Shown: positions 6,790 through 50,228 of the stretch, piece after piece
Layout: the number at the start of each line of letters is the position of its first letter
Numbering within the stretch: the first letter of the stretch is position 1
Assembly (NCBI GenBank): GCA_018053145.1
Contig: JAGPMA010000010.1
Span: forward strand, 1-53,562
Reading direction: 5' to 3'
DNA from: Oscillospiraceae bacterium
Lineage (GTDB): Bacteria; Bacillota; Clostridia; Oscillospirales; Oscillospiraceae
Length of the DNA: 53,562 nucleotides
The notes under the pieces: model-generated
Database searches by the model: none
The model's input: only the letters and a program-made list of their open reading frames with translations
Told to the model about the DNA's origin: nothing
Made by a program: the position numbers and the translations under genes

Positions 6790-7350
6790 TTGGATAAAAA
6801 AACATTTAGAACAGATATTAAGGCGCGTATAGCCGCTTTTGACAGCGCTTATATAGTCGAAAGCGACACGGCAATCGCGCAAAACATAATATCTTTGAGG
6901 GAGTTCATTGCTGCTCCGCGCGTTTTTACCTATCTAAGCATAGATCGTGAGGCGGATACCCGAAGAATAATCGAGCACAGCTTATTAGTCGGTAAAACCG
7001 TTGCCTTGCCATACCGCTGCAAAAGCGGTATAATGAGTTTTGCTTTGCTTGATCGTCCGATTAACGAACTTTCCCTCGGGACATATGGAATACCTGCTCC
7101 GCCCGAAGGTGCCGAAACACTTATTCCCGACAAGGGCGACATCATTCTCGTCCCCGCTCTCTGTTACGACGAGAGTTTTTATCGTCTGGGACACGGCGGC
7201 GGCTATTACGACAGATTCCTTTCCGTCTGCCAAGCTTTTTCAGTTGGTCTTTGCCGTGAGAGACTTCTTGTCAGCGCTGTGCCAAAGGACAATTTTGATA
7301 TGCGCGTTGACGCTGTTGTTACAGAAAAAAGGATTGCGAGGCCATTATAG
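6790..7350 (+). CDS. 5-formyltetrahydrofolate cyclo-ligase
   Basis: It converts 5-formyl-THF to 5,10-methenyl-THF with ATP, returning stored folate to the one-carbon pool. The C-terminal signature 'RLGHGGGYYDRFL' is diagnostic, and 'LPYRCKSGIM' and 'GIPAPPEG' fit the family. The start is TTG at 6790, 3 nt after the DJ-1 stop, which implies coupling. At 186 aa it has the standard length. It links loosely with tmk because thymidylate synthesis uses the same folate pool. Confidence 0.95.
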   Translation: MDKKTFRTDIKARIAAFDSAYIVESDTAIAQNIISLREFIAAPRVFTYLSIDREADTRRIIEHSLLVGKTVALPYRCKSGIMSFALLDRPINELSLGTYGIPAPPEGAETLIPDKGDIILVPALCYDESFYRLGHGGGYYDRFLSVCQAFSVGLCRERLLVSAVPKDNFDMRVDAVVTEKRIARPL

Positions 7351-7391
7351 GCCCCGCAAATAAAGAGTGTTCTTTCTATAACTATTTAAGA

Positions 7392-7511
7392 CTAGCAGCA
7401 GCGATTCTCACGCTCGCAGCAGCCTCCGCCGCCGCCGCAGCAGCACATGAGAATAACGATAATTATAATTACCCACAGGCAACTGCCCATTCCATTTCCG
7501 CATCCAAACAT
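7392..7511 (-). CDS. Tiny Cys/Gly-rich single-span membrane protein, copy 1
   Basis: This 39-residue ORF has an N-terminal 'MFGCGNGMGSC', a hydrophobic segment 'LWVIIIIVILM', then 'CCCGGGGGCC' and a short Cys-ending tail. SD AAAGGG is about 8 nt before the ATG. A clear paralogue lies at 10326-10430. Both share a leader hairpin and a SigmaK-like promoter. Similar mini-proteins are widespread in Clostridia, where I recall names such as 'high-cysteine' or hypothetical protein; Bacillus YjcZ-type mini-proteins are comparable in design. Function is unknown; I infer a membrane or spore-coat role. It is opposite in strand to the genes on both sides. Confidence 0.75.
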   Translation of the reverse strand: MFGCGNGMGSCLWVIIIIVILMCCCGGGGGCCERENRCC

Positions 7512-7519
7512 TTATTTAT

Positions 7520-7563
7520 CCCTTTCTCCGCACACAACTCTCTTTTTTTGCCACTCTGCGCGG
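7520..7563 (-). promoter_or_regulatory. Conserved leader hairpin of the copy-1 Cys-rich ORF
   Basis: Read on the minus strand, CCGCGCA and TGTGCGG are complementary (with G.U) and flank a ~23-nt loop. The 3' arm runs into the ribosome binding region (GCGGAGAAAGGG). The same block, with similar sequence and position, precedes the second ORF (10431-10473). Confidence 0.55.
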
Positions 7564-7630
7564 TGAGTCGGCTATAAGTTCGGGAAGACCAATAAAGGCA
7601 GAGGCTTTGCCTCCTTATCGCCTTACGACC

Positions 7631-7658
7631 TATAATATGCCTGGAGCCAATTTGCGGT
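7631..7658 (-). promoter_or_regulatory. SigmaK-like promoter, copy 1
   Basis: On the minus strand CATATTATA (7631-7639) fits the mother-cell SigmaK -10 pattern CATAnnnTA. ACC lies exactly 16 nt upstream (7656-7658). The 7512-7699 gap holds only this promoter and leader. Confidence 0.45.
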
Positions 7659-7699
7659 TACAGCTATCATAACAATCTTAACAGTTAAGGAGCTAATCG

Positions 7700-8902
7700 A
7701 TGTCAGAGAAAAACTACAACGATAAAAACTTTTCAGCTTATGACGATGAGGACAAATACCCGGTAAAGAGCGGCAGTAGTCCCATAAGCAGAAGGCGAGA
7801 AAAGAAAACCGGCTGTCTCGGCGGGTTGATGTATTTTATTTTCATTGTTAGCATAAGCGTCATTCTCGCCTGTCTTGGTTGGATGGCAGCAAGTGATGTT
7901 CTCGCTTTGAACAAGGAGGCGGAGGATATTGAAATCACCCTGCCGGAAACCATTTTTACGCAAAAAGAAATCGATGTTACTGACTCTGACGGCAATGTTA
8001 CAGGCACGAAAACTAACAATGTCGCGGATATTGGCGAAGTTGCAACAATACTTAAGGATGCCGGAATAATTAAGTACAAAGCTTTGTTTTCTCTATATTC
8101 CGGATTTTCCGACGCAAAGGATAAAATGGATCCTGGCACGTACTCACTAAACACTGAATACGACTATCGCGCGATTGTTAAGAAGATGCAATTCGGCAGC
8201 GATTCTCAGGTTCGTACCATGGTTACCTTCCCCGAAGGTTTCACCATGAAGGAAATATTCAAACGGCTTGAGGAAAACAAGATTTGCACCTATGACGACC
8301 TCATGGAATGTGCCGCCAACACGGAATTCAATTACAAATTCCTCGAAAACATTCCGCTCGGCGATGCTTCTCGGCTGGAGGGCTTCCTTTACCCCGACAC
8401 CTACGAATTCTATCAGGGCATGACTCCCGAAGCGGCTATTGACACCTTCCTTCAAATTTTCCATTACAAGCTCACAGCCGAGATGTGGGATATGACGGAG
8501 GCAAAGGGTCTTACAATGCGTGACATAGTAAACATCGCGGCTATGATTGAAAAAGAAGCAGCAAATGACGACGAAAGAGCCAAAATTGCAAGCGTAATCT
8601 ACAACCGCCTGAAGATTAATATGGCGCTCGGAATCGACGCTACTATCCAATACACCTTTGCAGAACACAAAGAAACTCTGACGGCAGAGGACTTTGAGAT
8701 TGACAGCCCCTACAACACGAGAAAATATACAGGGCTTCCCCCAACACCGATTGCAAACCCGGGCTTCCCATCAATTACTGCGGCGCTGAAGCCTGCCACC
8801 ACCGACTATCTTTACTATGCGCTCGACACGGCAACAAGCACCCACAAGTTCTTCAAATCCGCCGCCGAGTTCAACGCATTCGTTGCGACCCAGAATTATT
8901 AG
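7700..8902 (+). CDS. mltG: Endolytic murein transglycosylase MltG (YceG-like)
   Basis: MltG cuts nascent glycan strands at the membrane. The 400-aa protein has a ~40-residue charged cytoplasmic N-terminus, one membrane span (about 41-65), a LysM-like region, and the YceG catalytic domain. The signature 'AAMIEKEAANDDERAKIASV' places the catalytic Glu at about residue 284. 'YNRLKINMALGIDATIQY' and 'NTRKYTGLPPTPIANPG' follow. SD AAGGAG precedes ATG 7700. The U32 peptidase gene follows after a hairpin. Length is usual for clostridial MltG. Confidence 0.95.
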   Translation: MSEKNYNDKNFSAYDDEDKYPVKSGSSPISRRREKKTGCLGGLMYFIFIVSISVILACLGWMAASDVLALNKEAEDIEITLPETIFTQKEIDVTDSDGNVTGTKTNNVADIGEVATILKDAGIIKYKALFSLYSGFSDAKDKMDPGTYSLNTEYDYRAIVKKMQFGSDSQVRTMVTFPEGFTMKEIFKRLEENKICTYDDLMECAANTEFNYKFLENIPLGDASRLEGFLYPDTYEFYQGMTPEAAIDTFLQIFHYKLTAEMWDMTEAKGLTMRDIVNIAAMIEKEAANDDERAKIASVIYNRLKINMALGIDATIQYTFAEHKETLTAEDFEIDSPYNTRKYTGLPPTPIANPGFPSITAALKPATTDYLYYALDTATSTHKFFKSAAEFNAFVATQNY

Positions 8903-8909
8903 TATACTT

Positions 8910-8943
8910 GGAGGATAGTGTGAAGAAATTTACACTATCCTCC
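8910..8943 (+). promoter_or_regulatory. Perfect 12-bp hairpin with anti-SD arm upstream of the U32 gene
   Basis: GGAGGATAGTGT (8910-8921) and ACACTATCCTCC (8932-8943) form a perfect stem with a 10-nt loop and no T run after it. The 3' arm contains CCTCC (8939-8943), which could instead pair with GGAGG of the U32 SD (8953-8957). These pairings exclude each other. Confidence 0.5.
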
Positions 8944-8965
8944 CTATACACAGGAGGAGGACTCT

Positions 8966-10168
8966 TTGAAAACAGAATTATTAGCTCCTGCTGGAGATAT
9001 GGAGCGCCTTGCAATGGTACTCCATTATGGCGCAGATGCGGTTTATCTTGCCGGAACAGAATTTGGAATGCGTGCCGCTGCTGGGAACTTCGATGATTTA
9101 ACTATGCGCAGCGCCGTTGAAATGTGCCACAAAAAAGGCGTAGCCGTACACGTTGCCTGTAACACACTGCCACGCGAATATGAGCTAACAAAGCTCCCAC
9201 CATATCTCGAGCAGCTTGAGGATATCGGAGTTGATGCGCTTATAGCAGCTGACTTGGGGGTTATTTCTCTGGCGAAAAAATACGCTCCGAAAACGCAGCT
9301 CCACATCAGCACACAGCTTGGAATAGTCAACAGCGAAACCTGTAAAGCAGTTTTCGATATGGGTGCTTCACGTGCGGTTTTAGCAAGAGAACTCAGCCTT
9401 GCAGAAATTCGGGATATACGCTTGAATTCCCCGAAGGAGCTTGAGTTGGAGGCATTTGTACATGGAGCAATGTGCGTTTCCTTCTCGGGTCGCTGCCTTT
9501 TGAGCAACTATATGACGAATCGCGATGCGAACCGCGGGGAATGTGCCCAGCCCTGTCGCTGGAAATATCACCTTGTTGAGGAAAAACGACCCGGAGAATA
9601 CTATGAGATTTCGGAGGATAACGGCACTTATATCATGAACAGCAACGATATGTGCATGATTGAGCATCTGCCCGAACTCATAGATGCCGGTATTTCAAGC
9701 TTTAAAATCGAAGGCCGCATGAAATCCGCTTATTATGCCGCGGCTGTTACAAACGCCTACCGTCACGCTCTTGACGCCGCCATTGACAGCAAGCCTCTTT
9801 CCAAGGCGTGGATAGATGAGGTCGAGAAAATCAGCCACAGAAAATATTCCACGGGCTTCTATTTCGGCGAGCCGGGGCAGTACTATTCGAGCAACGACAG
9901 CATATATTTTGCGACAGCCGATGTCTGTGCGGTGCTGGAATGCTGTGACAGCGAAGGTAATGCAGTTCTTTCCCAGCGAAACAAATTTTCTGTGGGTGAT
10001 ACGGTTGAGCTTTTGACAAATGACGACGAGCCTCTTTCTTTCAAAGTCGAGCTGTTAACGAACAGAGACGGTGAACTCGTTGAATCCGCTCCCCATCCAA
10101 TGATGGAGCTTCATATGAAGCTGCCGAAGCCCTGTGCTCCTCTATCCCTGTTGCGAAAGCTCAAATAA
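8966..10168 (+). CDS. U32-family peptidase
   Basis: A 400-aa protein starting 'TELLAPAGDMERLAMVLHYG'. The U32 signature region is 'ELEAFVHGAMCVSFSGRCLL', followed by the conserved Cys-containing 'NRGECAQPCRWKY' and 'SFKIEGRMKSAYY'. Members are annotated as collagenase-like; those studied in detail (RlhA, TrhP) act in RNA hydroxylation with an Fe-S cluster, so true protease activity is doubtful. Start is TTG 8966 with a very strong SD (AGGAGGAGG, 8952-8960). It sits behind mltG, a common clostridial pairing. Confidence 0.93.
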   Translation: MKTELLAPAGDMERLAMVLHYGADAVYLAGTEFGMRAAAGNFDDLTMRSAVEMCHKKGVAVHVACNTLPREYELTKLPPYLEQLEDIGVDALIAADLGVISLAKKYAPKTQLHISTQLGIVNSETCKAVFDMGASRAVLARELSLAEIRDIRLNSPKELELEAFVHGAMCVSFSGRCLLSNYMTNRDANRGECAQPCRWKYHLVEEKRPGEYYEISEDNGTYIMNSNDMCMIEHLPELIDAGISSFKIEGRMKSAYYAAAVTNAYRHALDAAIDSKPLSKAWIDEVEKISHRKYSTGFYFGEPGQYYSSNDSIYFATADVCAVLECCDSEGNAVLSQRNKFSVGDTVELLTNDDEPLSFKVELLTNRDGELVESAPHPMMELHMKLPKPCAPLSLLRKLK

Positions 10169-10173
10169 AATAA

Positions 10174-10207
10174 GCGCCATAGACCCTCTCTATGGCGCGA
10201 TTTTTTT
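10174..10207 (+). terminator. Terminator after the U32 gene
   Basis: GCGCCATAG (10174-10182) pairs with CTATGGCGC (10190-10198), then GATTTTTTT. Confidence 0.95.
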
Positions 10208-10325
10208 ATGTACAGCAAAACAATGGCTTTTTGTCCAAACCATACGCTGTTATTTACAAATAGTTCTCCCTATTTCAAATTAAAGGATTGGATGCTCATT
10301 TGAATACTAGAATTAAGTGCTTTGA

Positions 10326-10430
10326 TCAGCAGTCATTGACGTTACCAAAGCCGCCACCGCAGCAACAGGCAAGGATTACGATGATAACAATTATCCAGAG
10401 GCAACCGTTATTCCCACACATTCCGTTCAT
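10326..10430 (-). CDS. Tiny Cys/Gly-rich single-span membrane protein, copy 2
   Basis: This 34-residue paralogue of the 7392-7511 ORF reads 'MNGMCGNNGC', hydrophobic 'LWIIVIIVILA', then 'CCCGGG' and a short tail ending in Cys. GGAG lies about 6 nt before the ATG, inside the conserved leader block. The repeated architecture (Cys before the span, W at its start, CCC-Gly after it) and the conserved non-coding leader support a real gene, although it is below usual ORF cut-offs. Function is unknown. The rest of the 10208-10697 gap holds its promoter and the terminator of the amidase gene. Confidence 0.72.
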   Translation of the reverse strand: MNGMCGNNGCLWIIVIIVILACCCGGGFGNVNDC

Positions 10431-10473
10431 TCCCTTCTCCGCACAAAACTACCCCACTTGCCTTTCTGTGCGG
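10431..10473 (-). promoter_or_regulatory. Conserved leader hairpin of the copy-2 Cys-rich ORF
   Basis: On the minus strand CCGCACA pairs perfectly with TGTGCGG across a ~22-nt loop. The block ends in GCGGAGAAGGG next to the ATG. It closely matches 7520-7563. Confidence 0.55.
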
Positions 10474-10532
10474 AAAGAAGGCTTTTCGGTGATAATTAAA
10501 CGAATACGAAATTTCAACTCAGCTTTTCGCCT

Positions 10533-10560
10533 TATACTATGCCCTTTTCCTTTTTTATGT
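10533..10560 (-). promoter_or_regulatory. SigmaK-like promoter, copy 2
   Basis: CATAGTATA on the minus strand (10533-10541), with ACA 16 nt upstream (10558-10560). Same spacing and pattern as the copy-1 promoter. Confidence 0.45.
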
Positions 10561-10696: not shown

Positions 10697-11329
10697 TTAT
10701 CTTGTCATACCAAAGGCCTTTGAGGCCCTCTCCAATATAAGGGCCAGTTCCTGTCTGGTAAGTGCTTCGTGCCAGTGATAGCTTTTGTCATCTCCGCCCA
10801 GAAACAAGCCCTTTTCTATTGCCCATTCGCACGCGCTTGCCGCCCAGTCCGAGGGCTCCTGTGTCTGTTCAGCATCCTTAGCCGGTTCGGTTTCTTTTCC
10901 GCTTACCATTTCATCGAGGGGAAAGTTCTTGCCTGGGCAAGCGGTCTGTGCGAACTGCGAATGTCTGCCAATAACAATTGACGGATAACGCGAAACTATA
11001 TCAGCAACAAGTTCTTTCCCTGCAGCAAGCTGCTCAGCACTCATCTTCTCCGTCTCGAAATTGCCTTCAAAACAAATACCAATAGAGCAATAATTCCAGT
11101 TTGTCGTGTGTCCTCCGCGCATGTTTTCGGGACGGCCGCAATACACCTCGCCTTTTTTGCTTACAAAATAGTGATAGGCAATTCCCGACCAGCCCTTTGA
11201 AAGATGATAGGCGTGGATCCCGTCCGCAGTGACATTTGAAGCAGCGGCATGGTGCAAAATCAGATGTGTGGTTACTGTTCGGGGCGTTAGTGCAAACGCC
11301 CATTTATAATTGTTACTGATTACTTTCAT
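10697..11329 (-). CDS. N-acetylmuramoyl-L-alanine amidase (Amidase_2/PGRP) with SLH-like tail
   Basis: It cleaves the amide bond between MurNAc and the stem peptide. The catalytic domain (~1-135) has zinc-site motifs: 'LILHHAAA', 'AYHYFVSKKGEVYCGRP', 'GRHSQFAQTACPGKNFP'. An acidic, Glu/Gln-rich linker follows. The C-terminal ~45 residues ('AASACEWAIEKGLFLGG' and 'LTRQELALILERA') resemble one S-layer homology motif. There is no signal peptide. The gene overlaps the upstream holin-like gene by 17 bp, the layout of a phage lysis cassette. No other phage genes are near. Confidence 0.92.
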   Translation of the reverse strand: MKVISNNYKWAFALTPRTVTTHLILHHAAASNVTADGIHAYHLSKGWSGIAYHYFVSKKGEVYCGRPENMRGGHTTNWNYCSIGICFEGNFETEKMSAEQLAAGKELVADIVSRYPSIVIGRHSQFAQTACPGKNFPLDEMVSGKETEPAKDAEQTQEPSDWAASACEWAIEKGLFLGGDDKSYHWHEALTRQELALILERASKAFGMTR

Positions 11330-11591
11330 TGTTTTTTACCGAAAGCTGTTTTGCAATTTCGTGGGAGCCCGTTGCGGCAAGTCCTGAAACAACGCCGACT
11401 GCAATTGCTGTCAGCGGGTCATTTGCCGGAAAGCCGGGCATCACCCTAAGTCCTATGTAACCCATGATTGCACCGCTGACTCCGCAAATCACGGGTATCC
11501 ATTTGTTCTCGAGCTTCGTGGCTTTAACCGCTTGCGCTATTAGGTGGCTGATTATAGTTATAACCGCGACATATACTATTTCAGTGTTCAT
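11313..11591 (-). CDS. Phage-type holin (phi29-like holin family)
   Basis: A 92-aa protein with about two to three hydrophobic segments ('EIVYVAVITIISHLIAQAV', 'WIPVICGVSGAIMGYIGL', 'PLTAIAVGVVSGLAATGSHE') and a charged C-terminus. This fits the Phage_holin_5-type family. I used ATG 11591 because SD GGAGGG is directly upstream; the frame is open further upstream but without an SD. It overlaps the amidase gene and would let that enzyme, which lacks a signal peptide, cross the membrane. It could be a domesticated lysis pair. Confidence 0.85.
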   Translation of the reverse strand: MNTEIVYVAVITIISHLIAQAVKATKLENKWIPVICGVSGAIMGYIGLRVMPGFPANDPLTAIAVGVVSGLAATGSHEIAKQLSVKNNESNQ

Positions 11592-11728
11592 AATATCCCT
11601 CCGTTTTGTTGTCCCTTCGGAAATACTGCGCATATCAAACAAATTTGTACCTGCGCATACACAGAAAGATATTAATTGCACAATAATATCAATTTTGATA
11701 AATTATTATAGATAATCTGTGAACTCTG

Positions 11729-27554: not shown

Positions 27555-28421
27555 ATGAAAAAACTAATAAAAACCAACATTTCCATAATATGCGCCATTT
27601 GCTTGATGTTTTGCACGATGGGTGGTTTCGCAAGTGCCGAAGTTACGACCGACGACGCTAATGAAGCGGTCTACAGTACGGTTCCCATCTACTTAAACGG
27701 TATAAAAATGACCGACGGTCTTTTCGTTAATGAAACCACATATATACCTCTCAGAGCTTATTTTAAAGCCATTGGAAATCAAGCCGATATCGCATGGAAT
27801 GAAGAAACAAATACAGCAACAATTACCGACAAGGGTCTTGTACTGGCAGTAACCGTGGGCAACCATTACCTCACAGTTAATGACCGTAACCTCTATCTGG
27901 CCAACGGAGCGCTTGTAATTGACGGGACAATATACCTTCCTATCCGAGAACTTGCAAAGCTTTATTCCGCGAGTGTTGAGTGGGATGCCGAATCTTCTTC
28001 AGTCAGCCTATGCTCGGACAATACCATTGTTATCGACAGCGCAACCAACTACTACAATGAGCAGGATTTATATTGGCTGTCTCGCCTTATAAATGCCGAG
28101 TCCGGAAACCAGCCTCTTGAAGGCAAAATTGCCGTTGGTGACGTTGTTCTTAACCGCGTTGCTAATCCCACCTGCCCCGATTCAATTTACGGCGTAATAT
28201 TTGACTCAAAATATGGCGTTCAATTTAGCGTTACTCAAAACGGTGGAATATATGAAGAGCCTAACGAAGAATCCGTCATTGCGGCAAAGATTTGTCTCGA
28301 GGGCTACAATCTCGTCGGTGATTCAATCTACTTTGTAAATCCAGAAGTTGGAGTGTCTTCATGGTTTGCTAAAACACGTGTGTTTGTAGCAACCATCGGT
28401 CAGCACGATTTCTACGCTTAA
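27555..28421 (+). CDS. SleB/CwlJ-type cell wall hydrolase with copper amine oxidase-like N-domain
   Basis: A secreted 288-aa protein. Signal peptide 1-28 ends near 'GGFASAE'. Residues ~43-155 are a copper-amine-oxidase-N-like domain ('VPIYLNGIKMTDGLFVNETT', 'IYLPIRELAKLY'), a common substrate- or surface-binding module in Clostridia. The C-terminal Hydrolase_2 domain has the catalytic Glu in 'RLINAESGNQPLEGKIAVG' followed by 'VLNRVANPTCPDSIYGVIF'. These enzymes cut spore cortex peptidoglycan during germination. Its usual partner YpeB is encoded 3 kb away on the other strand. Confidence 0.93.
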   Translation: MKKLIKTNISIICAICLMFCTMGGFASAEVTTDDANEAVYSTVPIYLNGIKMTDGLFVNETTYIPLRAYFKAIGNQADIAWNEETNTATITDKGLVLAVTVGNHYLTVNDRNLYLANGALVIDGTIYLPIRELAKLYSASVEWDAESSSVSLCSDNTIVIDSATNYYNEQDLYWLSRLINAESGNQPLEGKIAVGDVVLNRVANPTCPDSIYGVIFDSKYGVQFSVTQNGGIYEEPNEESVIAAKICLEGYNLVGDSIYFVNPEVGVSSWFAKTRVFVATIGQHDFYA

Positions 28422-29773: not shown

Positions 29774-30055
29774 TTGAGTTTTCCGGAAACCTTTAAGGCT
29801 CTGGCCGATCCCGTTCGGCGTGAAATCCTAATTATGCTCAAGCAGGGTAAAATGTCGGCCGGAGAAATCGGGCAGGCCTTCGACATGACGGGCGCTACAA
29901 TTTCATACCACCTTTCACAGCTAAAAAAGGCGAAGCTCGTAACCGAAAGTAAGCAAAAAAATTATGTATATTATGAGCTTAACACCTCCGTTTTCGAGGA
30001 GGTTATGCTCTGGTTTTCTCAATTCGGAGGTAGCAAAGATGAAACCGAGAAATAA
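29774..30055 (+). CDS. ArsR-family regulator, SdpR-like
   Basis: A 93-aa winged-helix repressor: 'FKALADPVRREILIMLKQG', recognition helix region 'FDMTGATISYHLSQLKKAKL', wing 'ESKQKNYVYYELN'. No Cys metal site is present. I start at TTG 29774 because AAGGGTGGTG matches the anti-SD sequence just before it. The next gene is an SdpI-like membrane protein, overlapping by 17 bp, so by analogy with Bacillus SdpR/SdpI this is an autorepressor sequestered by its membrane partner. Confidence 0.88.
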   Translation: MSFPETFKALADPVRREILIMLKQGKMSAGEIGQAFDMTGATISYHLSQLKKAKLVTESKQKNYVYYELNTSVFEEVMLWFSQFGGSKDETEK

Positions 30056-49506: not shown

Positions 49507-50199
49507 TTATTCGTGACGCGGGTCGATATACTTCGCAGCTTCGGAGAAGCGACCGTATGTACCCTTTGCCTTTTCAAGTGCCGTGTTCGCGTCCTCACCC
49601 TTTTTGATGGCATCCATCATTTTTCCTAGGCTAATGAACTCGTAACCGATTATCTCGTTGTTCTCATCGAGAGCAATTCGGTTTACATAACCTTCTGTAA
49701 GTTCGAGATAACGTGCACCCTTAGCCTTCGTGCCGTACATCGTTCCAACGCTGCTTCTCATGCCCTTGCCCAAATCCTCAAGCCCTGCGCCGATGGGCAG
49801 TCCGCCTTCGGAAAATGCGGTCTGGCTGCGTCCGTAAACAATCTGCAAAAATAGCTCGCGCATTGCTACGTTAATGGCGTCGCACACAAGGTCGGTGTTG
49901 AGGGCTTCGAGAATGGTCTTTCCCGGAAGAATTTCGGACGCCATAGCTGCTGAATGTGTCATGCCGGTGCAGCCAATGGTTTCCACCAAGGCTTCCTCAA
50001 TAATGCCATCCTTGACGTTTAGGGTAAGCTTGCAGCTGCCCTGCTGGGGTGCGCACCAGCCGATGCCGTGCGTAAGTCCGGATATATCCTTGATTTCCTT
50101 TGCCTGTACCCATTTGCCCTCTTCGGGTATGGGAGCAGGGCCGTGGTATGCACCCTTAGTCACCGGGCACATATGCTCTACTTCGGTTGAATAAATCAT
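49507..50199 (-). CDS. NifU/IscU-like iron-sulfur scaffold protein
   Basis: A 230-aa protein with a NifU-N-like core: 'GIGWCAPQQGSC' (C49, C56) and 'ETIGCTGMTHSAAMASEIL' (C77, matching the IscU GC.xxIASS element), plus C106 and C11. It is longer than IscU (~130 aa), with a distinct C-terminal half ('GTMYGTKAKGARYLELTEGY'). Presumably it holds or delivers an Fe-S cluster to the GGGtGRT partner encoded next to it. No iscS lies in the window. Confidence 0.9.
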   Translation of the reverse strand: MIYSTEVEHMCPVTKGAYHGPAPIPEEGKWVQAKEIKDISGLTHGIGWCAPQQGSCKLTLNVKDGIIEEALVETIGCTGMTHSAAMASEILPGKTILEALNTDLVCDAINVAMRELFLQIVYGRSQTAFSEGGLPIGAGLEDLGKGMRSSVGTMYGTKAKGARYLELTEGYVNRIALDENNEIIGYEFISLGKMMDAIKKGEDANTALEKAKGTYGRFSEAAKYIDPRHE

Positions 50200-50228
50200 A
50201 TAATAGCTCCTATCGGTAATAATTCGGT

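Follow-up and report, generated by a model that had tools for sequence, protein, structure and literature searches.

Two Cys/Gly-rich mini-genes flanking an mltG-U32 pair in an Oscillospiraceae bacterium: candidate late-sporulation genes with a pseudoknotted leader

In the SAM-II and preQ1 riboswitches, an H-type pseudoknot adjoins the Shine-Dalgarno (SD) sequence. In Bacillus, a leader stem-loop together with the SD region reportedly controls mRNA life in the aprE-type 5' stabilisers and in STAB-SD, and we know of no pseudoknot in these systems. The sigG leader hairpin of B. subtilis is a conserved structure that tunes the translation of a sporulation gene (PMC5942855), and the cyanobacterial Downstream-peptide motif is a structured RNA of the 5' untranslated region associated with small open reading frames (ORFs) of typically 17-100 amino acids (aa) that belong to no known family (PMC2864571). 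As for tiny sporulation proteins, yjcZ of B. subtilis has been assigned to the sigma-K regulon (PMC517825) and its product is named among frequent membrane-associated small proteins in the sORFdb paper. We describe here two tiny genes, ORF1 and ORF2, from contig JAGPMA010000010.1 of an Oscillospiraceae bacterium (assembly GCA_018053145.1); the stretch analysed, positions 1 to 53,562 in nucleotides (nt), is called the window below. Both are real, conserved genes, each with its own promoter-like site and terminator. Judging from sequence features, on which expression and location also rest, we think it fairly probable that each encodes a late mother-cell mini-protein of the membrane or coat, the mRNA of which would be stabilised or gated by a pseudoknot in its leader.

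Both genes lie on the minus strand. ORF1 (7392-7511) encodes a 39-aa Cys/Gly-rich single-helix mini-protein, MFGCGNGMGSCLWVIIIIVILMCCCGGGGGCCERENRCC. ORF2 had been read in a preliminary description as a frame of 34 codons (10326-10430; translation MNGMCGNNGCLWIIVIIVILACCCGGGFGNVNDC). Its ATG at 10430 directly abuts the SD region, the ATG at 10421 has a normal SD spacing, and four ORF2 orthologues begin MC... at the ATG equivalent to 10421. The start is therefore likely to be 10421, giving a 31-aa mini-protein (10326-10421), and the one first proposed is probably three codons too early. Apart from this length, the earlier account of the two frames stands: both translate as described, and their common plan is real. 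No further ORF of the family pattern turned up elsewhere in the window.

The pair of genes that the two ORFs flank is annotated as YceG/MltG-like and peptidase U32, as had been supposed. ORF1 neighbours the 5-formyltetrahydrofolate cyclo-ligase gene and the YceG/MltG-like gene; ORF2 neighbours the peptidase U32 gene and the genes for an N-acetylmuramoyl-L-alanine amidase and a holin-like protein. The order DJ-1/PfpI - cyclo-ligase - ORF1 - mltG - U32 - ORF2 - amidase - holin - Trk is intact in three sister loci (L070, L072 and L074), meaning that both copies of the mini-gene are old and fixed in place. The same block is partly preserved in other loci of the genus, and in related genomes the orthologues stand before mltG (ORF1) and after the U32 peptidase gene (ORF2). 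Eight ORF1-type copies (group A) gave a pooled proportion of synonymous differences (pS) of 0.52 and of non-synonymous differences (pN) of 0.18, that is, a pN/pS of 0.35; for five ORF2-type copies (group B) the values are 0.75, 0.18 and 0.24. As judged from their codons, both ORFs are thus under purifying selection. That they arose by chance in the non-coding sequence of a leader or terminator, as low complexity and short length might suggest, is hardly credible in the face of the synteny, the pN/pS values and the homologues found throughout the genus and the family; we consider that conservation and synonymous bias have already refuted it. The preliminary description had held chance to be unlikely and proposed to look at codon substitutions, and on both counts the same two positions in sister genomes and the synonymous bias of both groups bear it out. 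Each gene is followed by a terminator-like hairpin on the minus strand, at 7334-7359 for ORF1 and at 10174-10198 for ORF2, the latter scoring on the plus strand too, for the U32 gene. Next to ORF2, adjacent Amidase_2 and holin-5-type genes (10697-11681, minus strand) are kept within the genus. This pair may be likened to a domesticated lysis cassette, perhaps one serving mother-cell lysis.

The mini-proteins share a plan made up of a Gly/Asn/Cys head, C-x-W, about 13 hydrophobic residues, CC and a Gly/Asn/Cys tail. Unless stated otherwise, members are counted over 89 accepted starts from loci L001-L069 and L081-L110, with lengths of 27-65 aa (median 39) and some near-duplicates (L055/L056; L086-L088; L092/L094/L095). 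Left out were L008, L015, L028, L035, L053, L061, L063, L068 and L110, where neither a filter on length, pattern and ribosome-binding site nor inspection by eye gave a family ORF, and L082, which is the window's own second copy again; L070-L080 are outside the 89, being repeats of the same genes or products of the YjcZ search. At a loose E of 10, matches occur in 8/11 genomes of the genus, our own included. The profile of 13 genus members matches 42/150 genomes of the taxonomic family at E 0.1 and 34/197 genomes of the order at E 0.05. At E 0.01, a wider profile (38 rows) matches 78/291 genomes of the class and a family-tuned one 102/150 genomes of the taxonomic family, part of the matches in both cases sitting within long frames and being probably false. 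The wider profile matches only 7/199 genomes of the phylum sample, two of which are in the window's own taxonomic family. Tandem copies of the mini-gene occur occasionally. The earlier idea of a paralogous family of membrane mini-proteins in spore formers gains support from these homologues, which extend far outside the genus and across the class Clostridia.

Among 38 diverse members, none has a significant match in Pfam (best E 0.073) or in NCBIfam (best E 0.0086, one member, HGxxPAAW); the best E in PHROG is 0.015 (two members, unnamed family), and all three best matches were judged to be chance. The open-access literature that was searched yielded no description of the mini-protein family or of its leader. 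Neither Pfam nor NCBIfam appears to contain this Clostridia-wide and probably spore-stage gene family, an omission likely due to the small size of its members, 27-65 aa. The family offers a defined set of candidate membrane or coat proteins of the late mother cell in anaerobes; in C. difficile, few of the B. subtilis coat proteins are conserved (PMC3789822). It is improbable that the mini-proteins belong to the YjcZ family as diverged members. The two do have a common plan, with a Gly-rich head, one helix and a short tail, and yjcZ belongs to the sigma-K regulon (PMC517825), but the helix sequence differs, the CCC is missing from YjcZ, and no PF09680 match supports membership: this family is found above its curated cut-off in 0/11 genomes of the genus and is absent from the Pfam matches of the 38 members at E 1. 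Profile-profile alignment of the two families with hhalign gave a probability of 7.5% over one aligned column, and no chain of intermediates joining the two profiles was seen.

Each mini-gene is preceded by a sigma-K-type promoter on the minus strand. That of ORF1 (7631-7658) reads AC (-35) ... CATATTATA (-10), a motif present upstream of 13/13 genus copies, and that of ORF2 (10533-10560) reads AC ... CATAGTATA. In C. difficile, the -35 element is AC for sigma-K promoters and ATA for sigma-E promoters (PMC3789822). When scanned as AC, 15-18 nt and CATAnnATR within 250 nt upstream, the motif is found for 65/89 members, as against 15/1780 shuffles (which, in this test as in the pseudoknot scans and in the folding of the first 50 nt of the leaders, keep single-base and not dinucleotide content) and 4/235 other ORFs of at least 100 aa in the same loci. 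By group, the counts are 13/13 in the genus, 26/29 in the rest of the taxonomic family and 26/47 outside it. The genome itself carries SpoIVA, together with two sigma-E/K-like factors. With the sigma-K model these gave 254 and 244 bits; its cut-off, 299, was reached neither by them nor in any of 14 control genomes, B. subtilis included. Over 97 high-quality genomes of the taxonomic family, the mini-gene is present in 69/88 with SpoIVA and in 3/9 without (Fisher p 0.008). The cross-table was compiled manually from two listings; six unlisted SpoIVA-negative genomes were inferred by elimination, and one of the three SpoIVA-negative carriers (G090, a 791-aa frame) is probably a false match. The link to sporulation, a guess in the preliminary description, gains sequence evidence from these promoters, from SpoIVA in the genome and from the association just given; the roles suggested there, in metal binding, in the coat or in membrane regulation, are conjectural. 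Additional matches to the promoter motif lie in the window at 27584-27609 and 29967-29991 (minus strand) and at 50180-50205 (plus strand). Outside the class, other tiny ORFs (L263, L265 and L260; for example MSNMFGNGNEWLVFIILLLLVCCND, in tandem) stand behind sigma-K-type promoter motifs, and possibly form a wider superfamily with the mini-proteins.

From promoter to start, the leaders of ORF1 and ORF2 are each about 110 nt long, and both are predicted to contain an H-type pseudoknot. In the ORF1 leader (7528-7572, minus strand), stem S1 pairs 7572-7565 with 7556-7550 (one bulge), stem S2 pairs 7563-7557 (CCGCGCA) with 7534-7528 (TGTGCGG), and the third loop (7549-7535) is A-rich, so that the order is GCCgACTC-a-CCGCGCA-GAGTGGC-(A-rich loop)-TGTGCGG-AGAAAGGG. 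The last element is the SD region (7520-7527, minus strand; conserved form GCGGAGAAAGG), which follows the pseudoknot immediately. In the ORF2 leader (10439-10482, minus strand), the stem GCC..TTT / AAAGGC surrounds a loop, CCGCACA (10473-10467), that pairs with TGTGCGG (10445-10439), and the SD region AGAAGGG occupies 10432-10438 (minus strand). The pseudoknot abuts the SD sequence AGAAAGG yet leaves it unpaired. Near its 5' end the ORF1 leader also carries a hairpin (7595-7624, minus strand), with AAGGC ... GCCTT enclosing GGAGGC-AAA-GCCTCT. Over 40 leaders the first 50 nt have a mean folding z of just -0.77 (15/40 below -1), so that conservation of this hairpin is weakly supported.

Several controls speak for the pseudoknot. 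In pooled leaders, a pseudoknot score of at least 13 is reached by 37/43, compared with 38/1720 shuffles (2%) that preserve the 3' strand of S2. In an alignment of the genus, with the structure fixed from our own sequence, 92.3% of cells are paired (shuffle mean 88.0; 0/500 as high), 11 cells are altered on both sides (shuffle mean 3.0; 0/500 as high) and 5/14 pairs show a both-side change (14/500 shuffles as high), while slid versions of the structure attain at most 60.4% pairing. A search made without using the protein found GCGGAGAAAGG followed by ATG in 139/250 genomes of the taxonomic family. Eighty such sites were fetched among the matches listed. The first 42 distinct entries of the list supplied 41, one close to a contig end being omitted, and 39 more were picked by eye from the remainder, passing over sites already collected. 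Of the 80, 17 precede a mini-protein ORF, as marked by eye from the proteins (a regular expression alone marked 11 of them), and 63 do not. The sigma-K-type promoter is present at 15/17 of the former and 0/63 of the latter, and a strong pseudoknot at 15/17 and 3/63, respectively. Both tests fail at the same two family sites, each of them the second copy in a tandem pair (G012 and G117). When only the 41 in-order sites are taken, the promoter is found at 6/6 family sites and 0/35 others, and the strong pseudoknot at 6/6 and 2/35.

Two further observations came from the leaders and the scan. L016 and L043 have a variant leader, with the start region CGGCAGAATGGAG and a pseudoknot of its own (CTGCGCG/CGCGCAG and CTGTGCA/TGCACAG). 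At L153 and L177, ORFs that look by eye like serine recombinases (MIYGYARCSTNESKQD...) are immediately preceded by a 9-nt inverted pairing picked up by the pseudoknot scan; it may be a site of recombination or an operator.

A number of points weigh against the picture of a late mother-cell protein behind a pseudoknotted leader. The sigma-K assignment is based on a short motif, and the association between SpoIVA and the mini-gene is moderate. The AlphaFold model, made for one sequence, places a helix at residues 11-25 with low confidence (predicted local distance difference test score 58.5). Energy folding of our own leader is modestly better than that of shuffles (z -1.46), and the fold came out without the pseudoknot because the program cannot represent one. 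A match in the scan must have paired stems and an S2 whose 3' end lies before AGAAAGG, so that position and pairing are partly obtained by construction; the weight is therefore carried by the controls rather than by the variety of the stems (34 different S1 and 16 different S2 sequences over the 39 leaders that gave a pseudoknot match at any score). Six of the 43 pooled leaders fall below the threshold, one of the ORF2 leaders (L010) shows an S2 mismatch, and further pair types are no more numerous in the genus alignment than in shuffles (201/500). Finally, the leader has a narrower distribution than the protein. The GCGGAGAAAGG-type start region, by which pseudoknot leaders were counted, precedes 13/13 copies in the genus, 13/29 in the rest of the taxonomic family and 0/47 outside it, where copies mostly have short leaders and a plain AGGAGG or GTGAGGTGA SD sequence. 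The protein family therefore does not need the pseudoknot. The question raised at the outset, whether the same leader precedes every copy, thus receives a divided answer: all do in the genus, about half in the wider family, and the leader holds a conserved pseudoknot.

If the two genes do encode late mother-cell proteins, their transcription by sigma-K RNA polymerase would take place late in sporulation, in the mother cell. The peptide would insert through its single short hydrophobic helix into the mother-cell membrane or the outer forespore membrane, where its Cys/Gly/Asn tail could serve to cross-link or to bind metal as the coat forms; it would be a small protein of the coat or one that lines the membrane. 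The leader structure would block an approach from the 5' side while the SD stays unpaired. Since the pseudoknot lies against the SD without pairing it, 5' protection or the tuning of initiation seems likelier than plain SD hiding; most likely, the pseudoknot would shield this late mRNA against exonucleases acting from the 5' end and/or determine how fast it is translated. Such a leader suggests translational or stability control at the sigma-K stage, and decay of late mother-cell mRNA is regulated in B. subtilis, as described for KapD and sigK mRNA (PMC11736430).

Size, a single hydrophobic helix, a structured leader and occasional tandem copies are also what one would expect of type I toxin-like membrane peptides whose leader hides the SD. 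We hold this to be very improbable, given the stable place of the genes in a core-gene block across the genus, their sigma-K-type promoters and, in a consensus scan of 7300-7720, the lack of any promoter-like site on the plus strand reading over ORF1; the long Cys/Gly/Asn tails are, to our knowledge, unlike known type I toxins. Unlikely as well, though to be taken seriously, is a translational switch under the control of a metabolite, an ion or a protein, in which ligand binding would stabilise S2 beside the SD and so gate translation: the pseudoknot is strong, far above controls, with S2 ending right before the SD as in the SAM-II and preQ1 riboswitches. The Downstream-peptide motif likewise shows a structured leader before tiny ORFs (PMC2864571). 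Against a switch, the loop sequences of the leaders inspected look by eye so different between genera that no conserved binding pocket is visible, and no convincing match came from Rfam. At the gathering threshold there are 0 matches in the whole window; permissive searches gave one sub-gathering match near our own leader, on the other strand, and 10 in 12 relatives, all judged to be chance. The best of these (isrG, E 1.5e-5, 31.3 bits against 100) covers a repetitive coding part of L213, and most of those in the relatives overlap the coding part or lie past it, the one at L151 being upstream. A bolder proposal, which we regard as doubtful, is that the leader is a pseudoknot switch and represents a hitherto undescribed class of regulatory RNA. 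Among the sites examined, it would accompany Cys-rich mini-proteins made late in sporulation in a single clostridial family, and would couple their translation to a spore-stage signal such as metal, dipicolinate or the redox state. In that event, a thiol-rich lining would be laid down only once the coat is ready.

Compared with the systems cited at the beginning, the mini-proteins come nearest to YjcZ (PF09680, YjcZ_2) in being tiny, Gly-rich, single-helix proteins with several copies per genome, YjcZ being under sigma-K in B. subtilis; they differ from the eight YjcZ proteins aligned here, which come from two genomes outside the class and have no Cys block. The resemblance thus appears to be one of plan and of sigma-K control, the latter read here from a promoter motif, without detectable homology. 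The leader shares with the riboswitches of H-type pseudoknot an architecture in which the pseudoknot abuts the SD, but the Rfam searches did not list SAM-II or preQ1, and no conserved loop nucleotides were seen by eye. With the Downstream-peptide motif it has in common a structured leader ahead of tiny ORFs, but phylum and gene are different and the motif is absent from the permissive Rfam lists. In sigG, a hairpin hides the ribosome-binding site of a forespore gene, whereas here a pseudoknot ends just before the SD of a putative mother-cell gene. With the aprE-type stabilisers and STAB-SD, lastly, it shares the combination of a leader structure with the SD region, which in the mini-gene leader may act on mRNA life.

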